From: Candidatus Heimdallarchaeota archaeon
GTDB lineage: Archaea > Asgardarchaeota > Heimdallarchaeia > Heimdallarchaeales > Heimdallarchaeaceae
Direction: 5' to 3'
Length of the DNA stretch: 50,911 nt
NCBI GenBank assembly: GCA_023270155.1
Contig: JAGLTB010000076.1
Span: 1-50,911 of the forward strand
The position numbers were made by a program, and so were the translations under genes. Shown here in pieces: positions 18,157 to 33,181 of this stretch. Position 1 is the first letter of the stretch. Each line of letters opens with the position of its first letter. Under the pieces are notes generated by a model. It did not search any database. It had not been told where the DNA came from and saw only the letters and a list, made by a program, of their open reading frames with translations.

Positions 18157-19047
18157 ATGTCGGAACATGAATACAAGATGTATGAAGAATTGCTTGATCT
18201 TCTTGAGAAAAGATACAAAGCAGATGAGATTGACAAAGAAAATTATGATGAACTAAAAGAAAGATACACTAAGAAGCTTGAGGTTGCAAAAGAATTCGCA
18301 GAAAAACAAAAAGAAGTTCCTAGGATGAAAGTTGCTGGTGCTCAAACTATTTCTGATACTCTTGCTTCATTTGCAGGTTCAGTAACCATTAACGGTGGAG
18401 ATGTAGCAAGAGATATCCGAGTTGCAGGTGCAGCTAAATTCAATGATGACATTATTTGTAAGAATTTGAAAGTTGCAGGTTCTGTAAAAAGTGCAGGAAA
18501 TATAACCGCTCATGGTGATGTTAAAACCTCTGGTTCATTCAAATGTGGAGGTTTTCTTCACGCAGATAGAGATGTAAAGGTTGCAGGAAGTTGCAAAATA
18601 GACAGTGAAGTAATAATTGGTGGAAAATTAGGAACTTCTGGAAGCTTCTCCTGTGGTGGGGATCTGCAAGCAGAAAATGGTATTAGGGCAGCAGGTTCTT
18701 CTAGAGTTGAAGGAAATATGCTTTCTCAAAGTACAGTTTCACTTGCTGGAAGAGCACAGATTGCAGGTAATCTAGTTGGTGAAGATGTCGGAATTAATAA
18801 AGATGTAATTTCTCATAGATTAAAGAGAAGCAGACCTTCTATTGTTGAGGGAAGTGTATTTGGAACCAAAGAGGTTATACTAAGAAATACAATTGTAGAA
18901 CAGGATGTCAAAGGATTGTTTGTAGAAATAGGACCTTTCTCTGAAGTTAAAGGCACTGTATTTTACGTTGAAAACATAAAAGTTGATAAAAAAGCAAAAC
19001 TAAACACTGAACCAGTTCAGATAAGTATTGATCAGTTAAAACTTTAG
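18157..19047 (+). CDS. Bactofilin-like beta-helix protein with N-terminal helical (SHOCT-like) segment
   Basis: 296 residues. Residues 1-55 are charged and helical (YEELLDLLEKRYKADEIDKENYDELKERY), resembling a SHOCT or short coiled-coil oligomerisation element. Residues 58-290 are a right-handed beta-helix-like array with at least eight turns marked by VAGA, VAGS, TSGS, AAGS or LAGR at roughly 17-20 residue steps. This is the pattern of bactofilins (polymer-forming scaffolds). A bactofilin-like scaffold role is inference. The start is ATG 18157, fixed by an in-frame TAA just before it. Two nearly identical Cys motifs (KCGG, SCGG) recur within the array. Monocistronic, between tRNA-Leu and srp54. 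Confidence 0.7.
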   Translation: MSEHEYKMYEELLDLLEKRYKADEIDKENYDELKERYTKKLEVAKEFAEKQKEVPRMKVAGAQTISDTLASFAGSVTINGGDVARDIRVAGAAKFNDDIICKNLKVAGSVKSAGNITAHGDVKTSGSFKCGGFLHADRDVKVAGSCKIDSEVIIGGKLGTSGSFSCGGDLQAENGIRAAGSSRVEGNMLSQSTVSLAGRAQIAGNLVGEDVGINKDVISHRLKRSRPSIVEGSVFGTKEVILRNTIVEQDVKGLFVEIGPFSEVKGTVFYVENIKVDKKAKLNTEPVQISIDQLKL

Positions 19048-30637: not shown

Positions 30638-31285
30638 ATGGCGACACCTGAATTCGGCACAATAAGTGCAACAAGAATGGAACTACTCAATACTAGAGCT
30701 AGAATACGATTAGCTCAGAAAGGCCATGATCTTCTAAAAGAGAAAATGGACGCGTTAGTAATTGAGTTGTACGCAATTAAAGATGAGGTTCGTCAAGCCA
30801 GAAAACAAGTCGAAGAAGAACTATTAATCGCCTATCAATCCTTAGCTAAAGCGGAGATGATTCTAGGTCCAGACAGAATAAGAGATTTAGCATTATATGC
30901 TCCCGCGATTTTAGAAATCAAAACACAAACTGTAAGTATAATGGGTGTAAGATCCCCACGTTTTGTTATAGATGAAATTCAAACAGATGACGAGGAGGTA
31001 TTTTATGGTTTATCCAGCTCAAGTGCTCAACTTGATAGATCTATAGTTTTCTTCCGAAAATCTTTGAAGACTTTAATGATTGTAGCAGAAAAAATGACAC
31101 TGCTTGAGAAACTTGCTTTGGAAATTAATAAGACAAAGAGAAGGGTTAATGCTCTGAATTATATTCTTATTCCAAAACTAAAAGCAACAGCAAAATTTAT
31201 TGCTAGCACTCTAGAAGAACAGGAAAGAGAGACGTTTTCAAGGTTGAAAAGAGTAAAGGCGATATTAGAAGCGAAAAAAGCATAA
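30638..31285 (+). CDS. atpD: A/V-type ATP synthase subunit D
   Basis: Central rotor-shaft subunit. The 215-residue product has the family N-terminus ISATRMELLNTRARIRLAQKGHDLLKEKMDAL and the C-terminal NKTKRRVNALNYILIPKL, forming the antiparallel coiled coil. Length is standard. Normally it follows atpB; here it stands alone about 9 kb away from atpA and atpB, under its own promoter. Confidence 0.94.
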   Translation: MATPEFGTISATRMELLNTRARIRLAQKGHDLLKEKMDALVIELYAIKDEVRQARKQVEEELLIAYQSLAKAEMILGPDRIRDLALYAPAILEIKTQTVSIMGVRSPRFVIDEIQTDDEEVFYGLSSSSAQLDRSIVFFRKSLKTLMIVAEKMTLLEKLALEINKTKRRVNALNYILIPKLKATAKFIASTLEEQERETFSRLKRVKAILEAKKA

Positions 31286-31441: not shown

Positions 31442-32287
31442 ATGGCGATTACAGATTGGTTTATTAATTTACCTCCAAAAGGTTTAACTGATTCCGGCTT
31501 AAAAATGCTAATTTATCTTGTTGTTATATTTACCATCTTAAGTGCTTTAATAGTTTTTATTACAACTAAAGTTTATAAGAAAGGGAAAGGACCTTCATTG
31601 CTTGATCTAGATTTAGAAACGGATATGCCTACCCCTAGTGATATCCCACCTGCTGAAAGAATTGCTATATTAAAAATTGAAAAAGCTAAATTCGAAGCGG
31701 GGCAACGAGCTTTGTCTGATGCTAATAGAAAGAAGGAGATAAGCGAGACAATCTTTGGAAGATTATCAGTTAGATACGCATCTGATGTTAAGAAAATTGA
31801 AGATGAAATTGAGAAAACTGCAAGAGAAGTAGAAGTATCTCAATTAGAAGAAGAACTGAAGAAAATGCAAGGAGATTATCTAAGCAAAATAAAAGGTGAT
31901 GAAAAGATTAAGACACCAGCGTCTACAACTAGCGTAGCACCACCAGCTCCAAAATCTAGAAAAGCTGGGAAAACTGCAGCCCCCCCAAGCCCTCCAACAC
32001 CATCAACAGGAGCAACTCCTCCACCACCACCTACAGTTGGAAAAACTCCTCCAGCAACATCAGTACCATCTCCTCCAATGCCAACTCCAGCACCAAAACC
32101 ACCAGGAGCAGCAGCAGGACCAAGCATTCCAGCACCTTCAATTCCAGCTCCTAAACCACCAGGAGCAGCGGCAGCACCATCCGGAGAAGGAGATCTGTTT
32201 GCCAAAAGTACATCAATTGCGGCATTGAGAAAAGAGATGCTTAAGGAACTTGATAGACTCAAGAAGTTTATGAGCGAACAACAATAA
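31442..32287 (+). CDS. Single-pass membrane protein with coiled coil and proline-rich tail
   Basis: 281 residues, no family recognised. Layout: short N-terminus (1-20), one membrane helix (about 21-42, LIYLVVIFTILSALIVFI) followed by KVYKKGKG, a charged helical or coiled-coil part (70-155), a proline-rich region (167-247) with PPPPP, repeated APKPPGAAA and PSIPAP, and a C-terminal amphipathic helix ALRKEMLKELDRLKKFM (261-277). Lys/Arg after the helix suggest the long tail is cytoplasmic. Poly-Pro runs of this kind bind profilin, SH3 or WW domains in eukaryotes; applying this here is speculation. GAGG lies 8 nt before the ATG. Monocistronic. Confidence 0.75.
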   Translation: MAITDWFINLPPKGLTDSGLKMLIYLVVIFTILSALIVFITTKVYKKGKGPSLLDLDLETDMPTPSDIPPAERIAILKIEKAKFEAGQRALSDANRKKEISETIFGRLSVRYASDVKKIEDEIEKTAREVEVSQLEEELKKMQGDYLSKIKGDEKIKTPASTTSVAPPAPKSRKAGKTAAPPSPPTPSTGATPPPPPTVGKTPPATSVPSPPMPTPAPKPPGAAAGPSIPAPSIPAPKPPGAAAAPSGEGDLFAKSTSIAALRKEMLKELDRLKKFMSEQQ

Positions 32288-32443
32288 ACCAACAGGTCAA
32301 GTTTATACACTATATAGAAAAGAAAATAGAAATTTGTTATTTTCTTTTTATTTTATTTTATATTAAACATTTGATGGTGAGATTTAATAGTATCAAATAA
32401 CAATATTACATTAAATAATAAAAAAATTAATCCGAGAGATTGT

Positions 32444-33181
32444 ATGGCTAATATTCACAATAGCTTACCACAGAAAGAGAAAGCTAAAGCCCTTGCAGCA
32501 AAAAAAGCTTTAGAGGACTTTGTTTTCGATGATTTCGTCGTTGGAATAGGAACAGGAAGCACTATCAAGTATTTTATTAAAGCTCTATCAGAACTTGTAG
32601 CGCAGGACGAACTTGAAATAATCACTGTTCCATCTTCTTTTGAAACACATTTAGAATTAGCTAGATCAGGACTATCTGTTTCCACTCTGGTTGAATTTCC
32701 AGAATTAGACACTTATGTGGATTCAGCAGATATAGTGACTGAGGATTATGTTCTTATAAAAGGAGGGGGGGGAGCTCTGACAATGGAAAAGATAATGGCT
32801 AAAGCAGCTAAAGAGTTCATTATAATTATTGATGATTCAAAATACCCTCAAGATCTTCTTAGTCACCATGTTCCTATTGAAATCCTTCCTCTTGCAGTTA
32901 ATACAGTTGTTGAGCCTATATACAACCTAGGTGGTGAGTTTAAACTTCGCTATGTAAAAGGAAAGATAGGACCGGTTACTTCTGATAATGGAAATGTTTT
33001 GGGAGATATCAATTTTAATCAGTACTATAATCCAAAAGAGATTGAGATGGCTCTCAACAACATCCCTGGCGTTATAGAAAATGGTATTTTTACTCTGGAT
33101 ATTCATCGTTTGATTATAGGCAAACCAGATTCAGTAGAAGTTATAGATCGACCCTCTTCACAATCTATAAAAGAGCAGTAA
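32444..33181 (+). CDS. rpiA: Ribose-5-phosphate isomerase A
   Basis: Interconverts ribose 5-phosphate and ribulose 5-phosphate. The 245-residue product has VGIGTGSTIKYFI (phosphate loop), VPSSFETHLELA, VDSADIVTED (the family DGADE, with both Asp kept and Gly changed to Ser) and LIKGGGGALTMEKI, containing the catalytic Lys and Glu. Its 3' end overlaps the convergent PIN-ATPase gene by 17 nt. Confidence 0.93.
   Translation: MANIHNSLPQKEKAKALAAKKALEDFVFDDFVVGIGTGSTIKYFIKALSELVAQDELEIITVPSSFETHLELARSGLSVSTLVEFPELDTYVDSADIVTEDYVLIKGGGGALTMEKIMAKAAKEFIIIIDDSKYPQDLLSHHVPIEILPLAVNTVVEPIYNLGGEFKLRYVKGKIGPVTSDNGNVLGDINFNQYYNPKEIEMALNNIPGVIENGIFTLDIHRLIIGKPDSVEVIDRPSSQSIKEQ

Follow-up and report, generated by a model that had tools for sequence, protein, structure and literature searches.

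Asgard archaea are the closest archaeal relatives of eukaryotes. They possess actin, profilin and gelsolin, and the portions of the literature covered by our search leave the membrane attachment of actin unexplained. A gene in a 50,911-nucleotide stretch of DNA (the window) from a Heimdallarchaeaceae archaeon, whose same-genus relatives include Heimdallarchaeota AB_125 and whose family also holds Ca. Heimdallarchaeum endolithica, encodes a protein with a membrane helix, a proline-rich arm and a short terminal helix. Could such a protein hold actin at the membrane, and which of its parts would do the work?

Layout and constraint of a 281-residue membrane protein

The open reading frame, its coordinates and the order of anchor, proline-rich region and terminal helix described in an earlier note are all borne out by ORF, hydropathy and AlphaFold2 analysis. 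The locus has the following features, in which pN/pS figures, with synonymous sites near saturation, are relative measures:

30638..31285, + strand: upstream neighbour, V/A-type ATP synthase subunit D (PF01813)
31442..32287, + strand: whole gene, 281 amino acids and stop (ORF)
31493..31579, + strand: N-terminal membrane helix, residues 18-46 (hydropathy, AlphaFold2)
31649..31897, + strand: predicted cytoplasmic helical hairpin, residues 70-96 and 102-152, pN/pS 0.15 in the family
31913..32182, + strand: disordered Pro-rich arm, residues 158-247, 32 Pro in 90 residues, pN/pS 0.57
32018..32032, + strand: PPPPP run, present in 12 of 23 family members
32189..32284, + strand: near-invariant C-terminal tail GDLFAKSTSIAALRKEMLKELDRLKKFMSEQQ, with helix at residues 255-280, pN/pS 0.038
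32444..33181, + strand: downstream neighbour, rpiA (ribose-5-phosphate isomerase A; PF06026, synteny)

Hydropathy is maximal across the 19 residues 22-40, with a Kyte-Doolittle value of 2.99, and the positive flank KVYKKGKG follows directly. Because a positively charged flank of a membrane helix marks the cytoplasmic side under the positive-inside rule, the C-terminal part of the protein should be cytoplasmic. AlphaFold2, given an alignment of 27 sequences, placed helices at residues 18-46, 70-96, 102-152 and 255-280, the segments between them being of low confidence, and modelled the last of these with a pLDDT of ~80. The segment previously called a coiled coil is helical in this model, but a helical hairpin describes it better. 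A helical-hairpin-like signature resembling that of the 281-residue protein, 'YDELKERYTKKL', also occurs near the N-terminus of a 296-aa ORF elsewhere in the window (18157-19044, + strand).

The arm stands out by composition. Proline makes up 32 of its 90 residues, versus 3.6% elsewhere in the window, and the richest 80-residue stretch holds 31 prolines here against 10 in the window's runner-up (binomial tail 1e-23). An antisense, Gly-rich ORF of 144 aa (31876-32310, - strand) was rejected as a gene, being a shadow of the CCA/CCT proline codons. Searches of the protein against Pfam and NCBIfam returned sub-threshold matches only, with no family covering it, and an 'OAR motif' match was dismissed as a chance SIAALR resemblance. 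Sequence searches of the PDB with the whole protein and with the helix profile likewise gave no meaningful match.

Every one of the 20 further genomes searched within the genus keeps the gene. Across 23 Heimdallarchaeaceae members the arm is free to vary in both its sequence and its length, from 88 to 157 residues, at a stable composition of 28-36% Pro, nearly without aromatic residues. Close relatives thus preserve part of the layout pointed out earlier, namely the C-terminal helix and the Pro-rich composition, but PPPPP survives in just 12 of 23; PPPP occurs in a further two, and L021 has not even PPP. Pairwise pN/pS, read as a relative measure, was 0.57 in the arm, 0.15 in the hairpin and 0.038 in the last 32 residues, which makes the terminal helix the most constrained part of the protein. 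The key element is this helix and not the proline runs.

The terminal helix and its genomic context across Asgard archaea

An initial tail profile gave a single strong copy in the host and, at E<=0.01, matched 177 of 228 Asgard genomes. With a wider profile of 17 tail sequences, matches rose to 194 genomes at that threshold and 209 at E<=1, and 41 of 45 high-quality genomes matched at E<=1. The tail consensus is SIxxLRxEMLxELxRLKKxM, the pan-Asgard motif is (S)I-x-x-L-R-x-E-M-L-x-E-L-x-R-L-K, and in the loci inspected the match forms the C-terminal end of the protein. No relatives were found on viral contigs.

What precedes the helix differs between lineages. An N-terminus of one membrane helix and a hairpin occurs in Heimdallarchaeaceae and in families f28, f8, f10, f23, f26 and f29; we read f28 as Thor-like, f19 as Lokiarchaeaceae and f5 as Hodarchaeales-like. 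In the Thor-like members the complete layout of the window protein recurs, the arm being Gly/Pro-rich; f10 members have few prolines in the linker and keep the helix. The f5 type (L163, L227, L030) is ~560 aa long with many membrane helices and ends in the same Pro-rich arm and terminal helix. Another form present in f5 genomes has a soluble N-terminus (L221-L224). Soluble helical N-termini are found in Lokiarchaeaceae and other lineages, where AlphaFold2 predicts a long helix and a short one, then a disordered arm and the terminal helix. Because the same C-terminal end sits on differing N-termini, the arm and terminal helix appear from sequence to be a portable module. Separately, genome G025 holds an 88-aa ORF ending in a related truncated helix, STSIAGLRNQILKELRG (L225, 2455-2523, - strand), which may represent a competing or free-standing copy.

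rpiA comes next after the single-membrane-helix form in every one of the 23 Heimdallarchaeaceae, as it does in representatives of f3, f8, f10, f23, f26, f28 and f29, the f8 (L103) and f23 (L100) examples being taken with bin assignments as given and the f23 bin, G166, being 12% contaminated. This shared neighbour suggests one ancestral Asgard gene. The relative orientation of rpiA varies, and its adjacency is probably positional and not functional. Functional coupling to the V-ATPase or to rpiA was rejected as the leading explanation, since the V-ATPase is an upstream neighbour in Heimdallarchaeaceae only and rpiA is constant in place but not in orientation.

In Lokiarchaeaceae (f19), the most conserved neighbour of the tail gene is an actin-related gene, which in 44 of 46 stretches (8 of 9 genera) lies downstream in the same orientation. 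In the remaining two genomes (G103 and G127) it lies just outside the stretch in the same position and orientation, which brings the count to 46 of 46 loci in 9 genera. The f19 genomes tested have 3 to 8 actin matches each, and the neighbour belongs to the ~290-bit actin-related class, not to the ~440-bit main actin. Because all 46 loci share one family, we count this linkage as a single event with long retention. Actin-gene adjacency is absent from the window and from the other families. Strict co-occurrence of the helix with actin fails: the f21-f24 clade (G163-G172) consists of small genomes with actin at 366-386 bits where the match is full and no clear helix gene, the sole exception being the contaminated G166.

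The host actin system and candidate partners of the helix

It had been supposed earlier that the host might be an Asgard archaeon with actin and profilin, and both are present. The host has two actin homologues (best actin 451 bits) and two gelsolin-like ORFs. The Pfam profilin model, PF00235, gave no match in the host and nothing convincing in its family, and the apparent absence of profilin proved to be a false negative once a profile of ten Asgard profilins was used. That profile identified a 122-aa frame in the host (E 1.8e-20) and a clear profilin in 21 of 23 Heimdallarchaeaceae genomes, the host included, leaving G002 at E 0.08 and G008 with none. Surveys with PF00235 will therefore under-report Asgard profilins; it missed almost all of the Heimdallarchaeaceae ones.

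The host profilin retains the Trp that is invariant in the profilin alignment, which by sequence would correspond to LC3 W53 and human W32. PMC8410842 describes that residue as a polyproline contact and reports that the Heimdallarchaeota LC3 profilin binds VASP polyproline with a KD of 0.3 mM without its N-terminal extension and ~3.3 mM with it. The host also encodes a 117-aa tandem-SH3 protein (G000:C209:4194-4304; L248, 1474-1824, - strand) that matches PF00018 at E 1.5e-5, above a cut-off exceeded in none of 14 control genomes; it is a possible reader of Pro-rich arms.

We favour the reading, at a probability of roughly 40%, of a membrane tether that docks a cytosolic partner, probably from the actin family, through its terminal helix, while the arm serves as a spacer and possibly as a weak profilin or SH3 site. 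The N-terminal helix would fix the protein in the cell membrane, with the hairpin on its cytoplasmic side, where it might form a stem for oligomerisation. A disordered Pro/Ala-rich arm of ~90-100 residues would keep the amphipathic C-terminal helix off the membrane. This helix would be the working end, fitting into a groove on a single conserved partner in the cytosol, most likely actin or an actin-related protein, much as the C-terminal helix of arcadin-2 does on crenactin or as short helices of eukaryotic actin regulators do. The protein would thereby keep actin, as monomers or filaments, at the membrane, and in lineages with PPPPP or GPP the arm may also bind profilin-actin or an SH3 protein weakly. 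The anatomy, its conservation and distribution, the Lokiarchaeaceae gene linkage and the host's actin, profilin and gelsolin are directly observed; we infer the topology, the docking, the identity of the partner (and with it actin binding) and any profilin or SH3 binding. Since the proline runs are lost in places, the last would be a lineage-variable extra.

Three things put actin-family proteins first among the candidates: the linkage in f19, the almost universal occurrence of actin in the phylum and the precedent of arcadin-2, a Pyrobaculum crenactin depolymeriser (PDB 5LY3) whose C-terminal 17 residues are helical and bind a hydrophobic groove of crenactin (PMC5173319). Compared by description, the two share the plan of a small archaeal protein with a conserved C-terminal helix as its (here presumed) working end, and a gene beside an actin-family gene, here in the Lokiarchaeaceae homologues. 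They differ in that arcadin-2 was handled as a soluble protein and its peptide uses a tryptophan (PMC5173319), whereas none of 17 aligned Asgard tails contains one.

Several observations weaken the case for actin. The linkage is confined to one family, possibly as a single ancient event kept by synteny, and involves an actin-related protein, not the main actin; rpiA, not actin, adjoins the window gene and its membrane-anchored homologues; the f21-f24 clade has actin but no clear helix gene; and the tails match no known actin-binding motif and lack arcadin-2's Trp. PPPPP is also not conserved, and the f10 linker is poor in proline.

It is quite conceivable that the membrane tether docks a non-actin pan-Asgard partner through its helix, such as a small GTPase, an ESCRT part or an envelope or secretion component, with the arm as a spacer only. 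The conservation and portability of the helix demand some partner, not actin specifically, and a clade that has actin yet shows no clear helix gene points the same way. In L087 and L099, Rab-like GTPase genes, recognised by eye from sequence, stand upstream in divergent orientation. Against these stands the actin-related gene as the sole recurrent cytoskeletal or signalling linkage seen, and the ESCRT MIM1 helix pattern, [DE]xxLxxRLxxL[KR], occurs in 0 of 16 tails.

We regard it as improbable that the helix is instead a homo-oligomerisation coil, resembling VASP tetramerisation, that clusters the protein while the arm recruits profilin-actin. The helix is amphipathic with a hydrophobic spacing of 3-4-4-3-4, many members have PPPPP or GPP runs, and the host has profilin. 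Ena/VASP proteins likewise combine a Pro-rich centre, which in the Asgard protein could bind profilin, with a C-terminal helix. However, neither VASP_tetra nor EVH1 gave a Pfam match, the N-terminus being a membrane helix instead, and the Asgard helix, at ~20 residues, is much shorter than that of Ena/VASP and short for a self-assembly coil. Its charged R, E, R and K positions are conserved like the hydrophobic ones, a pattern more typical of hetero-binding. A trimeric coiled-coil pattern was also tried on the tail and rejected.

A direct WASP- or formin-type recruiter of profilin or SH3 proteins, with the proline runs as its main functional element, is similarly hard to credit: the host profilin, its tandem-SH3 protein and the polyproline binding reported for LC3 profilin in PMC8410842 speak for it, but the proline region evolves nearly freely (pN/pS 0.57, a relative measure), L021 has no PPP and the proline-poor f10 members keep the helix.

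Similarity to WH2, VASP-tetramerisation or formin domains did not appear in Pfam searches or patterns. WASP/WAVE proteins with WH2 motifs resemble the Asgard protein in placing a short amphipathic helix and an LKK[FIL] end after a Pro-rich region, and an actin function is plausible in this respect. In the Asgard tail, however, the LKK lies ~5 residues further from the helix core; the protein has a membrane helix and lacks a CA region; Pfam at E<=10 gave no WH2 match for the tails or for the full-length proteins; and WH2 and thymosin patterns were absent from 16 tails. Formins have PPPPP runs in common with it, but a Pfam search found no FH2 domain. Overall, the original interpretation stands as to the host, its actin, gelsolin and profilin, and the layout, and gains the Lokiarchaeaceae linkage; it gives way on WH2, VASP and formin similarity and on the loss of PPPPP.

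A candidate link between actin and the Asgard membrane

The protein belongs to a previously unnamed Asgard family of membrane-anchored Pro-rich scaffolds with a putative terminal docking helix, for which we found no description in the portions of the literature searched. Among possible profilin ligands, PMC8410842 names Asgard proteins that carry PPAPRPLP or PPPAPP motifs. The Heimdallarchaeal profilin of that work is from the same phylum as the 281-aa protein, whose family and terminal helix are not described in the sections covered here.

The conserved putative tether, its near-invariant predicted docking helix and the Lokiarchaeaceae linkage together make a concrete candidate for actin-membrane attachment. 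More speculatively, and with considerable doubt, the family could be a pan-Asgard and probably ancestral set of tethers whose terminal helix captures actin or an actin-related protein, with profilin-actin loaded through the arm in some lineages, and so a pre-eukaryotic functional forerunner of WASP/VASP-type membrane regulators. If the partner is other than actin, the helix would expose an undescribed and nearly universal Asgard interaction. If actin binding is true, part of WASP/VASP-like membrane actin control would be older than eukaryotes, and the family would be a new one of prokaryotic actin regulators.
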